Source of the DNA: Clostridia bacterium
Lineage (GTDB): Bacteria; Bacillota; DTU086
DNA length: 40,462 nucleotides
NCBI GenBank assembly: GCA_012523575.1
Contig: JAAYIF010000029.1
Location: 1 to 40,462 of the forward strand
Direction: 5' to 3'
Numbering within the stretch: the first letter of the stretch is position 1; each line of letters starts with the position of its first letter. The translations under genes were made by a program, and so were the position numbers. Shown here piece by piece: positions 3,093 through 13,342 of this stretch. The notes under the pieces were generated by a model, which saw only the letters and a program-made list of their open reading frames with translations, was not told the origin of the DNA and ran no database searches.

Positions 3093-3132
3093 AAAAAAGC
3101 CCGACAAGCATTTAACTGCTGTCAGGCTTTTT
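3093..3132 (-). terminator. Intrinsic terminator of the coupling-ATPase operon
   Basis: A long stem (3094-3110 with 3117-3132, core AGCCCGACA) followed on the minus strand by T6. The hairpin overlaps the last codons of the VirD4-like gene. Confidence 0.85.
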
Positions 3133-4768
3133 GGACCTTCTTCACAAGGGAAGATAGAGAAGGTATAGAAGGTTTTGCACTCGTTTGGTTTTGTTTGAAG
3201 TAAGGAATTGCTTTTAAAATAACGGGTGGAAGGTTGTGAGCCAGCACGATTATCCTGTCTTTCTCCAGCCTTCTCAATTCGTCTGCGGACAAAAGGTTCG
3301 TGCTTTCTTCTTCATAGCTTGCCCGTCCCGCAATCTTTTGGAAGAATTCGTTGCTCTCTCCCGTAAGCCCCGAATAGAATATCTTTGTTTTCAGGTTGTT
3401 TATTATGTCCGTTTGTTCTTCAGGGCTGTATTCCCTTGCAAGCTGCTCTATGCCCTGCATACAAACATTAAGACTGATTTTCCTCGACCTCAATGTTGCT
3501 GCCATTTGTGCAAAACCCGGGATTTTCCCGATGTTCGGGAATTCGTCAAGGAAGAAGAAAACCGGCAAACCGGGTTCCATCACTAAATGCTCCATGATCT
3601 GCCAGTACAAAGTAGCTGAAAACGGCTTCATCAACTGGGATTTGTGTTCGGGTATTTGAATGAAGAAAACGGTCGGCTCTTTCCTTAAATCACTGGGAGA
3701 AAAACCTTCGTCCTGCACTACCCCTGCTATGTCGTCACGGGTAAAGAGCTTCAGCGAAGACACCGCAACGGTCCTTATGCTTCCTGCGGTTTCAGGGGAC
3801 TGAAGGGATTGCCCGTAAGCCAGGTATGTTTCCATAACCTTTACGCTTCCCTGCATCGCTAACTCTTTTCTCTTATCTTCGTCCATAGTGGAAATGTATT
3901 TATACGCCTTTACCATTGACGGCACTCTGTTTTCCTTCTTTGCCAGCTCCCGTTCCAAAAGGAGCATTGATTCCCACAGGGGTTGAGCGAAGGACACCCA
4001 CTGATCCGTTTGCCCGCCTTCGCTGTACCCGTTCTTTAAAGTAATTGAAGCCAGTTCCGATACTTCTGTTTCGTCTTTGCAGTTTGCCAGAGGGTTGTAT
4101 ACGCCTGAGTTTTTTCTTCCGGGAGCCAGTGCTACAACCTTCCAGCCCCTTTCCCTCAGCCTGTCCCCCGTTATCTGTTCCAGTTCGCCTTTTGGGTCGG
4201 TTACCACCGCTGATACCCCTTCGGGCAGGGTTAAAAGGTTTGGAATGAAGAACGAGCTGGTTTTACCGCATCCCGTGGGTCCGATGACGGCTATGTGTTC
4301 ACAGGAAGCACGGAGGGAAAGCCTTACGGGTTTGTTTGCTATGCCTTCCGAATACCCGAGGAAAACCCCGTCATCGCCCATCAACGGCTTCAAGGTCTGC
4401 TCCGTCCCCCACCTTGCAGTGCCCTGTTTCCCCAAGTGTCTTTTTCTTATCATCCTCTGCTCTATATATGAATAAGTTTTTTCCTTGAAGCGATTGTAAA
4501 AGTATATGCCCAAAGCAAGAAAAATCGCCAGAATTGATAAGGTTAAAATTAGTGAAACCGTTTCTGCTGTCGTCATTGGGACATCGGAAAAACGGTTTTT
4601 TATGAACTCCGCTTCCGCATCAGCCCAGTTTAAACCCCGATAGGTCGTCAGGGTTAAAAAGAAAGCGTGAATTCTCACTGCTAGAAAAATAACTATAATA
4701 CTTCCAAAGAAGGGTATCAGGAAAGCAGGGTTTATCTCTGAACCTTCTTTCTTTTCCATATATATCAT
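3122..4768 (-). CDS. TraG/VirD4-family type IV secretion coupling ATPase
   Basis: A 548-residue inner-membrane ATPase that in conjugation brings substrate to the secretion channel. Two N-terminal membrane helices (about 16-38 and 68-91) precede the P-loop GPTGCGKT (163-170), the family motif TDPKGEL (190-196) and the Walker B strand VFFFLDE (403-409). After it comes the VirD4-typical stretch ATLRSRKISLNVCMQGIEQL (424-443). The length and order match a full VirD4/TraG protein. The first ATG (4768) overlaps the stop of the GGDEF gene by one base; a second in-frame ATG three codons later (4759) is an alternative, as the AAGGAG lies very close to the first. The overlap means coupled expression with the GGDEF protein. 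No relaxase is seen nearby, so the substrate is unknown. Confidence 0.9.
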   Translation of the reverse strand: MIYMEKKEGSEINPAFLIPFFGSIIVIFLAVRIHAFFLTLTTYRGLNWADAEAEFIKNRFSDVPMTTAETVSLILTLSILAIFLALGIYFYNRFKEKTYSYIEQRMIRKRHLGKQGTARWGTEQTLKPLMGDDGVFLGYSEGIANKPVRLSLRASCEHIAVIGPTGCGKTSSFFIPNLLTLPEGVSAVVTDPKGELEQITGDRLRERGWKVVALAPGRKNSGVYNPLANCKDETEVSELASITLKNGYSEGGQTDQWVSFAQPLWESMLLLERELAKKENRVPSMVKAYKYISTMDEDKRKELAMQGSVKVMETYLAYGQSLQSPETAGSIRTVAVSSLKLFTRDDIAGVVQDEGFSPSDLRKEPTVFFIQIPEHKSQLMKPFSATLYWQIMEHLVMEPGLPVFFFLDEFPNIGKIPGFAQMAATLRSRKISLNVCMQGIEQLAREYSPEEQTDIINNLKTKIFYSGLTGESNEFFQKIAGRASYEEESTNLLSADELRRLEKDRIIVLAHNLPPVILKAIPYFKQNQTSAKPSIPSLSSLVKKVQKA

Positions 4769-7440
4769 CAGCTCCTTAAAACGATGTAGGGGCAGGTCTC
4801 TATTTTCCCCTTGTGGTAGGGCACTCCTTTTTTGTTCAGGTCATACTCCAGAAGTGCCGAGGACGTTTCCAAATTATTTGAAATAACGGCAGCGTATGGT
4901 ACGTGGTTCTCCAGCCACAAGGTCGCTTCATCAGGATCGTTAAAAGCATCAAACAGTATTCCTCTAACTTCAGGTAGTTTTTTGAAGCCCACAGCCATAA
5001 TCCTTATGCCCCTTTTGCTGTCCAAAAGGTTTGCCACCACTTCATCCAGAACCTTCATCCCCTTTTGGGGTTTGTTCCTGTCAATACCAACTGTTGGTAG
5101 TAAAAATGCTTCCAAGGCGTATTCTTTTATTTTAGGATCAGAGGAAAATACGACGCATACCTCCCTGCAGTGCGGGAGTTTTCTCTTTCTCCAAGCATCA
5201 ACATTTTCTCCCGTGAAGGTTTCTCCGACCGCCCAAAGAAAGATGTTTGCCTGCTCCGCAACAGCTTTGTATGCTAAAGATTTTTCTTCGTATTTTGCGT
5301 AAAACACAACGGTGTCGGAGAACCTCAACGCTCTTCCCAAAGAACCAAAATTGCTTTCGTTTATCAAAGATACGGTTTCCCTTTCGTCCTGGTAAAACTT
5401 CCTTATGAGGCAGGCCAATTCTTCCGCATCTCTGTGCGATGTAGGAGAGGAAACGCCAATGAGATAAGCAGATTTTGTCCTTACTTCCTCTGCCTTTGTT
5501 GCTTCTTGTTCCTCTCTGAACAGCTTGAGAGACGGAATTTTTGAAGGAAGTTTTATCTCAACCGAAGTGAGCTTATTTATCAGGCTTTCTCCTATCCTAG
5601 CAGGAACAAGCAGTTTTCTTTTTTCCGGGGGCTGCTTCTTTTCTAAAGGCAAGGGAGGAACAATGGTCTTGTCCTCCTGTTTTATCTCATCTTTTTGGGT
5701 TTTCTCTGTTTTTCCCGCCTCTTTTTCGTACCCGTTCACGATGTAAGAAAGTATGTTTTTACTTTCTTCAGCTAAAGGTCCAAGGGTGTATACCCATTCC
5801 CCCTGATCCTCTACGACTTCCTCTTTTGTTTCCTTTTTAACTTCTTCCTTTATTTCCTCTTTAGCTTCTTCTTTTACTTCCTCTCTAATTACCTCTCTGG
5901 CTTCTTCTTTAACTGCTTCTTGAGCTTTCTCCTTTGCTTCTTTTTCCGCTTCCTTTGCCTTTTCCTCTATTTCTCTGCTGAACTGGACAACCTTGTTCCT
6001 GCCCGTCTTTTTGGCTTCGTAAAGTGCTAGGTCAGCTTTGTTGATAAGGTCTGTAACATTATCCGCATCTTTCTTAAACACCGCTATGCCTGCGGAAAAG
6101 GTTGTCTTTATCCTTCGACCCCTGTCACGGCTTATGTTTCGCCCTCTGTCTAAAATAGTCCTTTGCCTTTCCCAGTTCTGCCTGAGCCGCTCTACAACAG
6201 GAAGGATGTCCAGATTATTTTTAAAGATAATTACGAACTCTTCCCCGCCGTACCGGAATACAAGGTCCGTTTCCCTTACATTATTTTTCAGGAAGGATGC
6301 AAACTGTTTCAAAACCATGTCTCCAGCTTCGTGCCCATACCTATCATTCACGGACTTAAAGTGATCAATGTCGAGTATTGCTAGAGAAAAGTCTGTTTTC
6401 TTTTCTGCAAGGATTGTCAGATATTCGTCTAAAAAAAGCCTGTTGTAGGCGTTTGTGAGCCGGTCTGTCGCTGCTTTGTCCCACAAGTTTCGCAGGCGTT
6501 GGGCTGTTATTTTCAGCTTCCTTATGTTCTCTCTGCTCAGCAAAGGTATAACTTCGTCTGCCCCGTAGGAGTAGAATCTGCTTCCTTCTTCCATGTCGGC
6601 TTCTACCACAGCAAAGACAGCGCACTCAAAGGCTGCCCGCCTGCGTAGCATTTGCAGGAGCATAGGGGTCTTTTTATTTTTTGAAGAAAAAATTAAGACT
6701 TCAGGCTGAAAGTCCAAAAGAGCTTCTTCAAGAGTATCCCCTTCTTGAAACCGCCTGCAGAAGTCCCCCGATATGCCGTATATGTAATCGTAACAGGGTC
6801 TGGCGTCCTGTTCTTCGATGCTGAAGGCTTCCTCTGCTTCGTTTTTCCCTGCTTCTTCCTTCCCTGTCGGTTCAGCTTCTACCGGTTTATCTTCTGCTTT
6901 TTCCGCTTCAGTCTCTTTCTCCTGTTTGTGCCTGCTTTCAGTTTTATACTGTTCCTGTTCAGACGGGGCTGGAGGTTCATCTTCATATTCTTCTTCCATC
7001 TGTTGATCTACCCGTATAGGTCTCATTATTGCAGGCTCTATCCCTACCAATGAAACTGCGTAGCTGTACGGAGAAGGTTCGTCTATCATTTGCACTAGTA
7101 GAGGAAGGGAAATTGGGTTAGTCAATATGTCATAAATACCTAGCTTTATTATCTCCGAAATAAAGTTTCTGTTTGGTTCAGGGTTGTAGTCGATGTAAAC
7201 CACCCTTACATCGCAGGACCGCACATCCTTAATAACGGAAAGCAAATCTACTGATCCCACGAGGGCTGAAGATATTACCGCAACGTCAGGCAGGTTTTTG
7301 TCAGCCCGTTCAAGCAAGTTTTTGACTGCTTCCCTGTAATACGCTTTACCGCAAATATCATACCTTTCCGTTTCTTCTATGTACTCATCTACTTCCAAAA
7401 TATTGGTGGCTAAAAGCAAGCTCAGTCTTTTCTTCTTCAA
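4768..7440 (-). CDS. Multidomain receiver-like / GGDEF diguanylate cyclase protein
   Basis: An 890-residue cytoplasmic protein. Residues 1-120 look like a CpaE/receiver-type alpha-beta domain, 148-207 form an acidic Glu/Lys linker, and 215-320 form a second receiver-like fold. A GGDEF domain (about 325-490) follows: the metal-site Asp in LAILDIDHFK, the NDRYGH motif, GGEEF at 398-402, and an RETD inhibitory I-site at 389-392. A second charged linker with K-E-E repeats covers about 490-545, and 640-890 is a second, unrecognised alpha-beta region. The intact GGEEF and RxxD predict c-di-GMP synthesis with product inhibition. The TTG start overlaps the stop of the TadE-like gene, and the stop overlaps the coupling-ATPase start, so all three are coupled. 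Neither receiver-like domain was checked for a phospho-acceptor Asp, and the C-terminal function is unknown. Confidence 0.85.
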   Translation of the reverse strand: MKKKRLSLLLATNILEVDEYIEETERYDICGKAYYREAVKNLLERADKNLPDVAVISSALVGSVDLLSVIKDVRSCDVRVVYIDYNPEPNRNFISEIIKLGIYDILTNPISLPLLVQMIDEPSPYSYAVSLVGIEPAIMRPIRVDQQMEEEYEDEPPAPSEQEQYKTESRHKQEKETEAEKAEDKPVEAEPTGKEEAGKNEAEEAFSIEEQDARPCYDYIYGISGDFCRRFQEGDTLEEALLDFQPEVLIFSSKNKKTPMLLQMLRRRAAFECAVFAVVEADMEEGSRFYSYGADEVIPLLSRENIRKLKITAQRLRNLWDKAATDRLTNAYNRLFLDEYLTILAEKKTDFSLAILDIDHFKSVNDRYGHEAGDMVLKQFASFLKNNVRETDLVFRYGGEEFVIIFKNNLDILPVVERLRQNWERQRTILDRGRNISRDRGRRIKTTFSAGIAVFKKDADNVTDLINKADLALYEAKKTGRNKVVQFSREIEEKAKEAEKEAKEKAQEAVKEEAREVIREEVKEEAKEEIKEEVKKETKEEVVEDQGEWVYTLGPLAEESKNILSYIVNGYEKEAGKTEKTQKDEIKQEDKTIVPPLPLEKKQPPEKRKLLVPARIGESLINKLTSVEIKLPSKIPSLKLFREEQEATKAEEVRTKSAYLIGVSSPTSHRDAEELACLIRKFYQDERETVSLINESNFGSLGRALRFSDTVVFYAKYEEKSLAYKAVAEQANIFLWAVGETFTGENVDAWRKRKLPHCREVCVVFSSDPKIKEYALEAFLLPTVGIDRNKPQKGMKVLDEVVANLLDSKRGIRIMAVGFKKLPEVRGILFDAFNDPDEATLWLENHVPYAAVISNNLETSSALLEYDLNKKGVPYHKGKIETCPYIVLRS

Positions 7441-7901
7441 ATATCCTCTCCCCTTCTTCCTTGCCCTATGGAGTAATACTGCATGGGGATTGTTACGGTA
7501 TATTCCCCGACTAAAGGAACTTTAAGCACTGCAATAGGTGCCCTTATTTCCGCAGCAAAACCGTCAGCCGGGGCTGTTTCCCCGAAAACGCTGTCCCCTT
7601 CTTCAATTGCACGGAAGGATACCAGCTTGTATTCTCCAAAGTCAAGCTCATCCATTGCTGCTGTAAAGAAGGTTTTACCTAAACTTTCGTTCCGTTTATA
7701 CTGACCTTGAGACATCAGCATGACCGCTTCACTTGAAAAGTCAACGGCTTCACGGAAGAAACCGTACTTGGCATTAGCCTGCTTTACCGTTCCGTAGCCT
7801 AACCCGAGAATAAACGCCAGCATTGATATAAAAGCAACTAGGTATCCTACAAGGATAATGTCAGCTATAAAGCCACGCTCGTCTTTTATCAGTTTCCGCA
7901 T
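7437..7901 (-). CDS. TadE-like pilin-type membrane protein
   Basis: A protein of about 154 residues with a short basic start (MRKLIKDERG) followed by a hydrophobic helix (about residues 11-33). The 'DERGF' before the helix resembles the prepilin/TadE processing region. The remaining 120 residues are predicted to be outside and to be rich in beta strands. TadE proteins are minor pseudopilins of Tad/Flp export systems. An ATG at 7901 is preferred over a TTG at 7910 because it gives the usual family N-terminus. It ends in a 4-bp overlap with the GGDEF gene. The family call rests on N-terminal architecture and context. Confidence 0.65.
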   Translation of the reverse strand: MRKLIKDERGFIADIILVGYLVAFISMLAFILGLGYGTVKQANAKYGFFREAVDFSSEAVMLMSQGQYKRNESLGKTFFTAAMDELDFGEYKLVSFRAIEEGDSVFGETAPADGFAAEIRAPIAVLKVPLVGEYTVTIPMQYYSIGQGRRGEDI

Positions 7902-7944
7902 GAAACCCAAAATGCTCTCTCACTCCCTTCAATCAAAACCCCTG

Positions 7945-8202
7945 CTATGAGGATGAAGAAGATGTCTGCTTCGTTTTGCTTTTCCCTTTAACGGAGTTTA
8001 TCCATGCCCAAACAGCCTTTTCAGAAACAGCAGGCAGAGAAAACAAACCCTCCTCAATCATGCGGACATTTTTCAGCGAGGAAACGAACTGGGCACATAC
8101 TGCCGGATCGTTCGGGAGCTTTACTATCACCTGTTCTCCCTGCCGGTTTACAAAAAATCCCGCCAGAATGCCCCCGATTTTAATCGTCGGGATGCCCCTC
8201 AA
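7945..8202 (-). CDS. Small unknown protein, start uncertain
   Basis: An 85-residue frame with 'GKSKTKQT' and a run of six serines at the C-terminus. No domain is recognised. It overlaps the end of the zinc-ribbon gene by 23 bp. The only usual start in frame is a TTG at 8202, which sits inside the perfect palindrome at 8195-8214 and lacks a ribosome-binding site. A GAGGGG lies at the right distance before an in-frame ATT, an unusual start. A -1/+1 frameshift from the upstream gene is another possibility. Coding is supported by the tight position between genes of the same strand and lack of overlapping alternatives. Confidence 0.5.
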   Translation of the reverse strand: MRGIPTIKIGGILAGFFVNRQGEQVIVKLPNDPAVCAQFVSSLKNVRMIEEGLFSLPAVSEKAVWAWINSVKGKSKTKQTSSSSS

Positions 8203-8881
8203 TTAATTGAGGGGAGGATGTCACTTCAGGGTATATCCAAGGGAAAACACCTTGAGGAAATCTGTCCGAATAAGGACTGCCTTTGAGCTTCGGGCGTTTC
8301 GTTACCACATATCTTGCGTCCCAGCTGTCAAACTTGCCGAGAATATCCCAAAGGTAGGACACCGCTTCGCGCACCTGCGCCTGCTTCGGCCGTACGACGT
8401 TTAACACATACTTCGCAAATCTCTGATCGGATATTTCCAAAAGCAGGTTTTCCGCAGCAGCTTCTTTTCCAAGGACATGGAGCACAATCCTGCAGCCGGT
8501 TAACGCTCCAAAGCAGGACGCAAGCTGCGGAGAAACCAAACCGAATTGGATCTCTTCTTCAAAAGACATATCCCTGCAGTAGACCCTCAAAAGGACGGTG
8601 CCCGACTCCAGCCCCTGTACGAAAACTTTTGATCTCTTTTTCTGTTTTTCCCCAAAGTCAAAGGACGGTTTTTCTCCTTTCCGTACCAGCCTTGCGCTGA
8701 ACTCGCTCCCCTTCTTTGATTTGAAGCCGTCTATTACGCCCGTTTTGCCTTCCGTGAAAAGCATTTCTATGTCCCGTTCGGAAAGGGTTTTCCCTGCTAT
8801 TTCAATATAGACGGTGAAGCACTCGCACCAGTATTTTTTGTCATCGTTTTGTACCTGCTTGCCACACCTAGAACACTCCAA
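8180..8881 (-). CDS. Zinc-ribbon protein of unknown function
   Basis: A 233-residue protein beginning with 'CSRCGKQ' and then 'WCECF', a CxxC...CxC arrangement that suggests a zinc ribbon. No other domain is recognised. The start is TTG with GGGGGTG six bases upstream. The stop lies inside the next gene's frame and just after a perfect 20-bp palindrome. It sits in the element upstream of the TadE-like gene and may be a regulator or assembly factor, but that is only context. Confidence 0.7.
   Translation of the reverse strand: MECSRCGKQVQNDDKKYWCECFTVYIEIAGKTLSERDIEMLFTEGKTGVIDGFKSKKGSEFSARLVRKGEKPSFDFGEKQKKRSKVFVQGLESGTVLLRVYCRDMSFEEEIQFGLVSPQLASCFGALTGCRIVLHVLGKEAAAENLLLEISDQRFAKYVLNVVRPKQAQVREAVSYLWDILGKFDSWDARYVVTKRPKLKGSPYSDRFPQGVFPWIYPEVTSSPQLIEGHPDD
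8195..8214. repeat. Perfect 20-bp palindrome across a gene junction
   Basis: CCCCTCAATTAATTGAGGGG is its own reverse complement. It covers the end of the zinc-ribbon gene and the only TTG start of the next gene, so in mRNA it could hide that start or stall ribosomes. Confidence 0.85.
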
Positions 8882-9524: not shown

Positions 9525-11099
9525 TTAACTTCCTCCCCCGTAGAAGCCTACTGCCGTCCCGTTTACCAGAAGTTTGACGGTTACAGATTTGTTCAACGTT
9601 TTTGAATAATCTTCCCAGTCAACACAACCGCCTTTGCAGTGCCCGTCTTTATCCCTCCTTGCACATGGGTCCCATCTGCCTTTCCTGTACTCCCACAACA
9701 TTTTGTAGTGAACCGTCACGGGGTAATAGGTCGGTCCGGCTACCATTCGCTTTTGAGTAAGAATGTATACATTAGCACCATTGATGCTCCAGTCCTCAAG
9801 GAAGCTGGCTTCCGCTTTGTTGCTTTCATCGTCAACACTCATACTCAAGGTCACAGTGCCTTGAGGTTCAAGGGGCTGTCCAAATGTGAAATTCGGGTGA
9901 CGCTTCGGATATTCTATTTTAGCTTCAAGGAGCTTCCATTCTTTCAATTTGTAGCACCGCCATCCGGGTTCAGGCGGTGGTGGAGCTGTGAAGTACGCTG
10001 TTATGGTATCTCCATATTTAGCTGTATTGGTTTCACGCTCTACAGAGGGCTGATATTTCCCCCAAACGTCTTTGCCTTCAGGACTCTTGGCTTTCAGTAT
10101 TAAAGTGCCCTCACCTATTACTGCATCCCCTTCTTCCTCTCCTGCTGGCGGTACGGTTACTTCCATTTCGTTGTTGCTCATATCAATATCGGTATCGGGT
10201 TCAACGGGTACTATCTTTGCTACGATGACGGATTCAGTACCGTCAACGCCTGTGAAGCTGAAAGTATATTCCTTTGTTTCACCGGGATTAAAGGTAACTA
10301 TTTTGCCGTTTACTTCGGGTATAGGATTGTTGTTGTGGGTGAGTTCCAGCTTTGCTTTGACCGGTTTGTCGTAGGTGTCCTTTAGCCCGAATACCACTAC
10401 GCCTACGTAGGTTTCGCCTGGTTCGGTCTGCTCTGTGCCCGGATCGAGGTCTGCTACATAGAGGTCAGGTGCTGCTTTGGGTATGCCGTACCAGCGAAGG
10501 ATGCCTGTCATGAAGTAACGCCAGCCCTGTTCGTAGCCGGAAAATTTTTCTTCGTCAAGCCCAAAAAGGGCACGGTTTTTTGGGCTTGTAAGGTCAGCAG
10601 CACAACTCTGGGGATCGTCCTGCAGGTATATGTCCCACGTTACTTCTGCCTTCCCTTTCTGGGAATTGACCAGCTGCGCTTTCGCTCCGTAGATGGAGGC
10701 TAGATATTCGTGATAGACATTATTAAAAAGATACCACGACATTGGAGAATCAAGGGGCAGACCGTTAAAATCGTAAATCCTTCCCCCAGCTTCAGTGTAG
10801 TTCTGCTCGGTTACCGGCCTCACAACTTCCACCCTCGTCACTGCGTACTGCTCAAGAAACTTTGAAGGAATCTGATACTCATACGAAGGGTTCTTCCTCT
10901 GCCCCGGCTTGTCCTCAGATGGAGGCTTTCCGTCAGTGTCTATCCACTTATTGCCCTTCCAAACATCAAAATACGGAACAATCACTTCCTGATAGATAAG
11001 CTTTTCTCCCCCGCTGTTTTCGTCAGCAGCATACAGGGGAAAGGGCACTAGAGAAACCAGAAACGACAAGAGGACAATCAAGCTTATCTTCCTCTTCAA
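9525..11099 (-). CDS. Large secreted protein with a CARDB-like domain
   Basis: A 524-residue protein with a signal peptide (about 1-25, ending LYAAD). Residues about 210-318 look like a CARDB (cell-adhesion) domain, with 'PDLYVADLDPG', a T/K-rich middle and 'DMSNNEMEVTVP' at its end. The rest is beta-rich, with C-terminal cysteines near CARRDKDGHCKGGC. No enzyme domain is recognised. The start is TTG with AAGGGGGG upstream. It lies upstream of a strong terminator and downstream of a second stalk-domain gene. Context suggests a surface or appendage protein of the element, perhaps for cell contact. Confidence 0.72.
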   Translation of the reverse strand: MKRKISLIVLLSFLVSLVPFPLYAADENSGGEKLIYQEVIVPYFDVWKGNKWIDTDGKPPSEDKPGQRKNPSYEYQIPSKFLEQYAVTRVEVVRPVTEQNYTEAGGRIYDFNGLPLDSPMSWYLFNNVYHEYLASIYGAKAQLVNSQKGKAEVTWDIYLQDDPQSCAADLTSPKNRALFGLDEEKFSGYEQGWRYFMTGILRWYGIPKAAPDLYVADLDPGTEQTEPGETYVGVVVFGLKDTYDKPVKAKLELTHNNNPIPEVNGKIVTFNPGETKEYTFSFTGVDGTESVIVAKIVPVEPDTDIDMSNNEMEVTVPPAGEEEGDAVIGEGTLILKAKSPEGKDVWGKYQPSVERETNTAKYGDTITAYFTAPPPPEPGWRCYKLKEWKLLEAKIEYPKRHPNFTFGQPLEPQGTVTLSMSVDDESNKAEASFLEDWSINGANVYILTQKRMVAGPTYYPVTVHYKMLWEYRKGRWDPCARRDKDGHCKGGCVDWEDYSKTLNKSVTVKLLVNGTAVGFYGGGS

Positions 11100-11208: not shown

Positions 11209-12222
11209 CTACTTCCCTGCGTAGAGAGGGTTGTCTACGATTATGAGGGTGTTCTCCGCTCCCTCAAGAATGAGCTGCTTTATCTCAGTAAAGTCTTTGA
11301 AACCGTTTTTGCCCCCTCTGAGAAGGTTGCCGTTTTTATCGCTTGCAGTGAAGCTTAAAGGAACGTCGCTGTAGGTTTCCTTACCGTTTATGACAAAAAG
11401 CGGATCAGAGTGGTACCTTATTACGTCTCCTTCTTCCACCAGGTAGTGGTGAGGACCCGGCAACCTGTCCACGGACGATACGGTGATGTTAATTTTATCT
11501 TTGTAAAATTTTACGCCGTAAACAGTAGTCCATCTGTCAATCTTTATCCCTTCAGCCGGAAATCCGCCTTCGGATATCTTTATAACATTCTTACCTTCAA
11601 GCTCCTCTTTCCACCTGGGAGTAATATAGCTGTAATCACTGGGGTTAAAAGTTTCACCAGCAGCAGGCGGCTGCTGCTCCTTCACGTACTCCAGCACGCT
11701 AGAATAATCAGGCTTCTCTTCTCCCTTGGGCCAGCACACTACCACTTTGTTCTGCGGATCCCACGCTACTTCGTACCCTAAAGCTTCCGCCACAAACCTC
11801 GCAGGTAAGTAGGTCCTTCCGCTCTTCAGTACAGGTGCTACGTCCATAGTTTTGGATACCCCGTTGCTCTTTATAACCTTCGACCCAACAGACAGCTCAA
11901 CCACAGGTAGCCCGGGTTCCTTAAAAGTAACTTTTGGGGAATTCCAAAAGATATATTTATTGGTTACCCCTAAAGCATTACCCAAGTACCTGATCGGCAC
12001 GAAGGTCCTTCCGTTTTGGATGAATGGGGTAGCGTCCATCTTTATCCCCGGAGTTTCACCGTTGATGAAGTATTCCTGCACTCCGATTACAAAGACTACG
12101 CTTTTTACTAGCTTTCCACCCTCGTAAACATCAACCTGCTCTTTGTCCTCTGCTATAACGGGAAACGCTATGCAGGAAAAGACAAGGGCCAATAGAAGCA
12201 ACAGCGATAATCGTTTTTTCAA
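11209..12222 (-). CDS. Secreted protein with copper amine oxidase-type stalk domain
   Basis: A 337-residue protein with a signal peptide (about 1-24) and two stalk repeats at about 45-170: 'GRTFVPIRYLGNALG' and 'GRTYLPARFVAEALGYEVAWD'. The C-terminal half (about 190-337) is not recognised and contains 'EGAENTLIIVDNP'. The start is TTG after GGAGGTG. It is separated by 110 bp from the CARDB-like gene and by 130 bp from the coiled-coil gene. It is the second member of this stalk family in the element. Confidence 0.78.
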   Translation of the reverse strand: MKKRLSLLLLLALVFSCIAFPVIAEDKEQVDVYEGGKLVKSVVFVIGVQEYFINGETPGIKMDATPFIQNGRTFVPIRYLGNALGVTNKYIFWNSPKVTFKEPGLPVVELSVGSKVIKSNGVSKTMDVAPVLKSGRTYLPARFVAEALGYEVAWDPQNKVVVCWPKGEEKPDYSSVLEYVKEQQPPAAGETFNPSDYSYITPRWKEELEGKNVIKISEGGFPAEGIKIDRWTTVYGVKFYKDKINITVSSVDRLPGPHHYLVEEGDVIRYHSDPLFVINGKETYSDVPLSFTASDKNGNLLRGGKNGFKDFTEIKQLILEGAENTLIIVDNPLYAGK

Positions 12223-12351: not shown

Positions 12352-13098
12352 CTACTGCTTTTCTCTTTTTTCTCTTACAGCTAAACAGACACTAGTCAAT
12401 AGTGATATTCCAACAAGGCTAACCCAAATACCGGTAACAATACTTCGTTTTGCATATGCTTCTTGGGTAAACTGTTCCTTGGCTTTTTCTTGTGCCCACT
12501 CAGGCAGCTTGTTAATTTGTTCGTTTAACTTTTTGACGCGTTGATTTGCATCTCGCCATGCATCACACTCTTTAACCAACTCTGAGGGCATTTTTGACCT
12601 AACAATCTGCGTTATTTCAAATTCTTTCGCTGGCTTATTGCCCCATTCTTCGATTTCCTGCAAAGCTCTTAAAAAAGGGTCATCTTCAGCTGTTTCTTTT
12701 GCGGTATCATAATACAATGGTTCAAGTTCAGCCCTCAATTGTTTTTCAATACGAAGATATTGGGTATGTCCTTCACTATGTTTTTTCTTTTCTTCTTCTG
12801 CCTCTGCTAATTTTGCTTCTAGATCCTGCTTTTTCTTTTTACCTTCTGGACTCTTCAAAATTAAACTAGCTTCTCTGGCAATAACGTCTTCGTTTAAATG
12901 TGGATACGCTTCACCGCTGTATTCTTTTCCATCAAGCCAGCCATATAAAACAATCCAATTTTGACCAGTCCAGCGATCGCGTAAGTGAACGTTTTTTAGA
13001 TTTTCGTCAGTCTGAATTGGCCCTTTTTCCCATCTAAAATGCCAAGCAACTAGTAATAGTAACCCTAAAACAACAGGTAGCAACCAAACTCGCTTCAA
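12352..13098 (-). CDS. Membrane protein with extracytoplasmic coiled coil
   Basis: About 248 residues with a membrane helix at each end (about 4-18 and 220-242) and a long charged middle rich in E, K and Q that should form a coiled coil (about 85-145) outside the cell. No family is recognised. A TTG at 13098 is chosen, not the one at 13116, because GGTGAT lies six bases before it, giving the typical start MKRVWLLP. It is the first gene of the element seen from the right and could tether a surface structure to the membrane. Confidence 0.65.
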   Translation of the reverse strand: MKRVWLLPVVLGLLLLVAWHFRWEKGPIQTDENLKNVHLRDRWTGQNWIVLYGWLDGKEYSGEAYPHLNEDVIAREASLILKSPEGKKKKQDLEAKLAEAEEEKKKHSEGHTQYLRIEKQLRAELEPLYYDTAKETAEDDPFLRALQEIEEWGNKPAKEFEITQIVRSKMPSELVKECDAWRDANQRVKKLNEQINKLPEWAQEKAKEQFTQEAYAKRSIVTGIWVSLVGISLLTSVCLAVREKREKQ

Positions 13099-13342
13099 TA
13101 ATGTATCACCGCGCAAAAAATTTCTAAAAGGATAAGCCTAAAAAGAAATTCAAATTGATTTTTCGGTGCAATTTTTTGACCAATCCTTTGCGACATATTA
13201 TATAATTGAATTATTATTAGTAGCAAAAATATTTACTCACAGAAAAATTTCGTAAAAAACATTATTACAATTTTTGTTTTGTAAAAGAAATTTCTTTACT
13301 TTCTAATTATTTCCTTTCATCTATTACCATAAATTTAGAATT

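Follow-up and report, generated by a model that had tools for sequence, protein, structure and literature searches.

The window, that is, the whole stretch of DNA analyzed here, is the entire contig C21 (40,462 bp) of a MAG of 1.64 Mb that is ~94% complete. On its minus strand, three genes overlap, encoding a TadE-like small membrane protein of 157 aa (7437–7910), an 890-aa protein with two receivers, a GGDEF domain, and a C-terminal region in that order (4768–7440), and a VirD4/TraG-type coupling ATPase of 548 aa (3122–4768). The initial annotation had described overlaps of one to four bases, and this was confirmed. The VirD4 start and the GGDEF stop have one base in common (TGATG), with AAGGAG upstream, and the GGDEF start, a TTG codon, has four bases in common with the TadE-like stop (TTGA), with AAGGGGAGAGG upstream; both overlaps are preceded by good, purine-rich ribosome sites. 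The coupling ATPase was identified by Pfam (PF02534 T4SS-DNA_transf, 4.8e-51) and carries the Walker A motif GPTGCGKT. It showed only ~25–31% identity to the VirD4s of 150 relatives and 35.7% to its best plasmid match, and a single-protein VirD4 scan across named genomes gave no match. An orphan VirD4 on a Priestia megaplasmid was rejected as a counterpart, with neither Tad nor GGDEF genes nearby. The TadE-like protein matched no Pfam or NCBIfam model, scored negative with the TadE profile, and had no match on plasmids. Its homologues sit within Tad operons beside CpaF, TadB, TadC, and Flp-like genes in Desulfofundulus, Desulfotruncus, Pelotomaculum, and other hosts.

The remaining genes of the locus lie on the same strand. 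Upstream of the trio, in order of transcription, are genes for a membrane protein (12352–13116), a conserved Cu_amine_oxidN1 protein (11209–12222; Pfam 1.8e-38), a conserved secreted protein that we call orf524 (9525–11099), a small ribbon-helix-helix-like protein, a protein with a topoisomerase C-terminal repeat (Toprim_Crpt, 8180–8881; Pfam 1.1e-17), which is short and lacks the topoisomerase proper, and an 85-aa open reading frame (7945–8202). Downstream of VirD4 follow a mazE–mazF-like pair (2394–2974, named by reading the sequence), a second, secreted Cu_amine_oxidN1-domain protein (1701–2171; Pfam 6.6e-15), and a CpaF/TadA-type ATPase of the VirB11 superfamily (478–1683; 401 aa). The presence of a CpaF/VirB11-type ATPase in the same strand run, noted in the initial annotation, was upheld by Pfam (T2SSE, 1.1e-12) and by a Walker A motif, GRTDSGKTT. 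As this gene lies ~1.4 kb downstream of VirD4, with the mazEF-like pair and the Cu_amine_oxidN1 gene between, it is not translationally coupled to the trio. Its best NCBIfam model, TIGR03819, scored under the cutoff, its C-terminus is ~45–50 residues short relative to orthologues of 57–75% identity, and no TadB gene comes next after it.

Homologous loci were found in many anaerobic Bacillota, where a joint T4SS and Tad cluster recurs (G147, G122, G099, G078, G001, G252, G203, G343b, G203b, G330, and others). The order in these relatives is VirB2, PrgI, VirB4, VirB6, and an M23/SLT hydrolase, followed, where the stretch reaches, by CpaB, CpaE, CpaF, TadB, TadC, TadE/TadG, and prepilin peptidase; intact loci place a conjugation-type T4SS core next to a Tad assembly platform on one strand. 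Clostridia bacterium 41_269 (G001), which is of the same genus as the window, has the full cluster, comprising the T4SS core, mazEF, Cu_amine_oxidN1, orf524, CpaF, two Tad platform genes, a TadE-like gene, a Flp-like gene, CpaB, CpaE, and a protein in the position directly after the hydrolase gene, hereafter the slot. Identities between the window and this cluster were 75% for CpaF, 77% for the mazEF pair, 53% for the conserved Cu_amine_oxidN1 protein, 47% for orf524, and 41% for the TadE-like protein, which in 41_269 is a Tad-operon protein; the window genes therefore belong to the composite cluster, in scrambled order. A 69% homologue of the window's membrane protein lies on the VirD4-carrying contig of 41_269. 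Taken together, the slot protein, the CpaF subfamily, the TadE-like protein, orf524, and Cu_amine_oxidN1 make the window a member of the composite loci. Desulfofundulus australicus (G252) carries the same set as 41_269, with a GGDEF domain in its slot protein. We also note that orf524, which matches no known family, and the Cu_amine_oxidN1 protein, both of them secreted, accompany the cluster in many hosts; homologues of orf524 adjoin CpaF and TadE-like genes in 41_269, Desulfofundulus, Desulfotruncus, Pelotomaculum, and others. The TadE–GGDEF–VirD4 arrangement was absent from every relative examined, which rules out the trio as a conserved module. The tight coupling seen in the window is therefore a local arrangement, and perhaps a decayed one.

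We then compared the 4768–7440 protein with the occupants of the slot in relatives. Full-length searches with this protein were drowned by ordinary GGDEF proteins, though the best extended matches led to the loci of relatives. Its GGDEF domain (Pfam 3.7e-40) has a GGEEF active site and a RETD I-site, and on these motifs it is predicted to be a diguanylate cyclase. Structure prediction gave two receiver folds for the N-terminal 322 residues (pLDDT mostly >85 where folded), and Foldseek returned PleD as their top match in the PDB; both receivers carry serine at phosphate-site positions in place of aspartate. The protein scored 155 bits with the NCBIfam model of the PleD family, against a cutoff of 474. 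The usual slot occupant is a receiver-fold protein, mostly with a degenerate ParA domain, and in ICEs with a relaxase and VirD4 it is ~380 aa long, with a receiver-like half and a degenerate ParA/MinD half. The GGDEF-family profile matches GGDEF-less slot proteins in the parts that flank the GGDEF on either side, and those of Desulfotruncus and Ammonifex have the window protein's C-terminal region in common. Profile–profile comparison backed the receiver (first) half of a GGDEF-less slot protein at 96%, and PDB sequence searches gave weak ParA/MinD P-loop matches only. Of the CpaE/TadZ-like features, then, the receiver half is present, and the ParA half is weakly seen in GGDEF-less homologues, with a degenerate Walker A motif. 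The C-terminus of the window protein itself was modeled too poorly to use (pLDDT 45), so its ParA origin rests on these relatives. Overall, the 4768–7440 protein would be a CpaE/TadZ-like slot protein with a PleD-like receiver–GGDEF unit inserted between its halves.

To put numbers on this recurrence, VirB4 profiles were searched against 150 relatives (35 positive at E 1e-8) and 399 genomes of the phylum (64 positive at E 1e-60), and 53 loci were read, many of them cut by contig ends. A GGDEF gene lay ≤12 kb downstream in 13 of the 53. CpaF was on the same strand inside a 35-kb stretch in 16 of 53 (simple null P ~4e-12, shared ancestry ignored), and the Tad count rose when the stretch was extended. 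Within 2 kb after M23, a GGDEF gene was present in 10 of ~43 loci (binomial P ~5e-15, shared ancestry ignored); in G203, one of these ten, the GGDEF stands alone in a small gene that follows a CpaE-like one. The nulls were 4.4 GGDEF domains per Mb and, for CpaF, T2SSE counts, and the shared ancestry of the loci makes both P values optimistic. The linkage of the GGDEF slot and of CpaF to these loci is more than chance.

About ten loci, in addition to the window, have a slot protein with an intact GGDEF domain. In the tree, 11 slot GGDEFs fell in one clade (support 0.985) that admits just one outsider, of the REC-GGDEF type; this suggests a single capture of the receiver–GGDEF unit with later losses. 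In 41_269, the slot GGDEF is reduced to a tail covering 39 of 161 positions. The idea that a diguanylate cyclase is a fixed part of the operon, as first proposed, thus does not hold: many homologous clusters do without the domain, and this same-genus copy has lost the greater part of it. A second GGDEF lineage sits immediately upstream of CpaE/TadZ in two MAGs, and in a Pelotomaculum MAG it appears fused to CpaE/TadZ. In the latter (L209, 8757–10820; one MAG contig), the ParA P-loop of the CpaE/TadZ-like part is intact. Conjugative elements of the SXT/R391 family of ICEs carry diguanylate cyclases as cargo genes, and the GGDEF of these loci could likewise be stand-alone c-di-GMP cargo that a mobile element uses to alter the lifestyle of its host, unrelated to the machine. 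Diguanylate cyclases are mentioned in SXT/R391 ICE papers (e.g., PMC2791158). Those are cargo outside any secretion-cluster protein, whereas here the GGDEF lies within a core cluster protein, forms one clade, and occupies the same slot across diverse families, and we consider a cargo origin improbable.

We then asked how complete the window copy is. The initial annotation had pointed to the region left of the window for VirB4, VirB6, relaxase, TadB/TadC, and prepilin peptidase, but the window and its contig begin at the same base, so the assembly has no sequence further left. Searches across the assembly found no VirB4, no TadB, TadC, CpaB, or VirB6 of the cluster kind, and no MobL relaxase; the sole prepilin peptidase sits in another pilus locus, on contig C55. 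No PilZ gene or other c-di-GMP receptor was found near the locus, and the only PilZ gene of the assembly is elsewhere. Of the parts that define a conjugative T4SS, this incomplete MAG shows VirD4 and not VirB4, and of those that define a Tad pilus, it shows CpaF/TadA with its short C-terminus and not TadB/TadC or CpaB. The window copy thus does not have to be a functioning machine. In 41_269, an in-frame TGA breaks VirB4 (L076, 15769–17748) next to the slot protein whose GGDEF is mostly gone; within the window's genus, the machine thus seems to be in decay. IscB-like RRXRR/HNH proteins, recognized by reading the sequence, are encoded near the same cluster (L076, 12119–13609, and L111).

The window locus could accordingly be decayed debris, with a trio that arose by rearrangement and has no function in its host. 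The truncated CpaF with no TadB/TadC behind it, the parts missing from the assembly (VirB4, VirB6, CpaB, MobL), the order scrambled relative to both 41_269 and D. australicus, the uniqueness of the trio, and the decay of the same-genus copy all speak for this. Set against them are the long open frames, in which the Walker and GGEEF/RETD motifs are intact, and the good ribosome sites; in addition, parts may be unassembled in a MAG that is ~94% complete and whose contig ends here. We give debris about an even chance. Either the copy is what remains of such an element or part of it went unassembled; it looks like the former. The window holds a rearranged and probably partial copy of the composite T4SS–Tad locus.

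Whether the intact loci encode one machine is a separate question. In one ICE (G384), a single strand carries relaxase, VirD4, VirB2-like, VirB6-like, PrgI-like, TraE-like, VirB4, hydrolase, and receiver-protein genes and continues with CpaB, MinD-like, CpaF, TadB, TadC, and TadE-like genes, mostly with few-base overlaps, which favors joint expression. As a side observation, one strand of the Exiguobacterium plasmid pEYLC1.2 (L220) encodes a MobP3 relaxase, VirD4, a VirB4-like protein, CpaB, and a T2SS/T4SS-family ATPase; the plasmid is non-mobilizable according to MOB-suite, yet looks like a conjugative T4SS–Tad plasmid. Strict co-inheritance of VirB4 and CpaF was not borne out, since their distances correlate weakly (r 0.26, p 0.01; r 0.89 for VirB4 and M23). 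The T4SS and Tad modules have thus been exchanged, and may be neighbors rather than one machine. They could be separate machines sharing a mobile or hot-spot locus, with the GGDEF controlling the Tad pilus only and the VirD4 adjacency due to chance. Many pili are under c-di-GMP control. Besides the weak co-divergence, the fusion of GGDEF to CpaE and the GGDEF genes directly upstream of CpaE indicate the Tad side, and many ICEs with the same T4SS have no Tad genes in the stretch read. However, the GGDEF slot is right behind the T4SS hydrolase even in the ICE-like locus G078, whose contig shows no Tad genes up to its end, and the G384 run extends, largely overlapping, from relaxase to TadC. We place separate machines slightly short of an even chance. 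The boldest reading is a distinct class of transfer machine in Gram-positive bacteria, with the Tad motor and platform (CpaF, TadB/TadC) integral to the T4SS and c-di-GMP made on the machine by a cyclase built into a TadZ-like hub; we regard it as rather unlikely. A physical union of T4SS and Tad is inferred. Of the single hybrid apparatus first proposed, the joint T4SS–Tad cluster of related Bacillota, the recurrent built-in diguanylate cyclase, and the G384 run stand, while the trio does not recur elsewhere and the window genome lacks most of the parts.

The reading that we favor, with moderate confidence, is a rearranged and probably partial T4SS–Tad locus of Desulfotomaculum-type Bacillota, in which a slot-protein hub with an inserted receiver–GGDEF unit would tie the machine to the sessile state. 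The cytoplasmic slot protein would most likely act as a positioning or assembly hub on the machine; its cyclase would produce c-di-GMP there under RxxD feedback, and the local c-di-GMP could link the building or firing of the pilus or secretion machine to the sessile state. Should intact clusters function as their gene content suggests, c-di-GMP is wired straight into a transfer or adhesion machine. Should they also act as a single machine, conjugation or secretion in Bacillota would have c-di-GMP as an integral control signal, and CpaF would be the VirB11-type motor reportedly missing from Gram-positive T4SSs. Cultured hosts of the cluster exist, such as Desulfofundulus australicus DSM 11792 and Desulfotruncus alcoholivorax DSM 16058, making these ideas testable.

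Finally, we compared the locus with known systems. The initial annotation knew of no described system with this set, which holds in part. Mixtures of T4SS and Tad genes are known: the conjugative plasmids pL15 and pY0017 of Sulfobacillus thermotolerans and the related Kr1 element combine T4SS and T2SS homologues on one backbone (PMC6803676). Like the composite loci, they have relaxase, TraG-type coupling protein, VirB4, and lytic transglycosylase with MinD-like, CpaF/TadA, and TadB/TadC genes in a Bacillota backbone; unlike them, the window lacks most of this set, and GGDEF is not mentioned in the text of that paper. A linear plasmid of Cutibacterium acnes has a tad locus beside VirB4/TcpC-like conjugation genes, but its host is actinobacterial, and the part of the source consulted mentions no diguanylate cyclase (PMC5696575). 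Gram-positive tad operons are known in Desulfotomaculum and Pelotomaculum (PMC3244431). A 2025 review describes VirB11 as universally absent from Gram-positive T4SSs and mentions neither Tad pili nor c-di-GMP (PMC12857230); a Tad motor integral to a Gram-positive T4SS, if true, would contradict this. We found no description of a diguanylate cyclase inside a T4SS–Tad locus in the open-access literature. The composite locus is real and recurrent, and its c-di-GMP part is apparently undescribed. Two proteins offer further parallels. Like PleD of Caulobacter, the top structural match of its N-terminus, the window protein has the order receiver, receiver, GGDEF, but it differs in receivers without the phosphate-site aspartate, long linkers, and an extra C-terminal part. 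Like CpaE/TadZ of Tad pili, the GGDEF-less slot homologues combine receiver-like and ParA/MinD-like halves in the same operon setting, whereas the slot protein has a degenerate P-loop and an inserted GGDEF.
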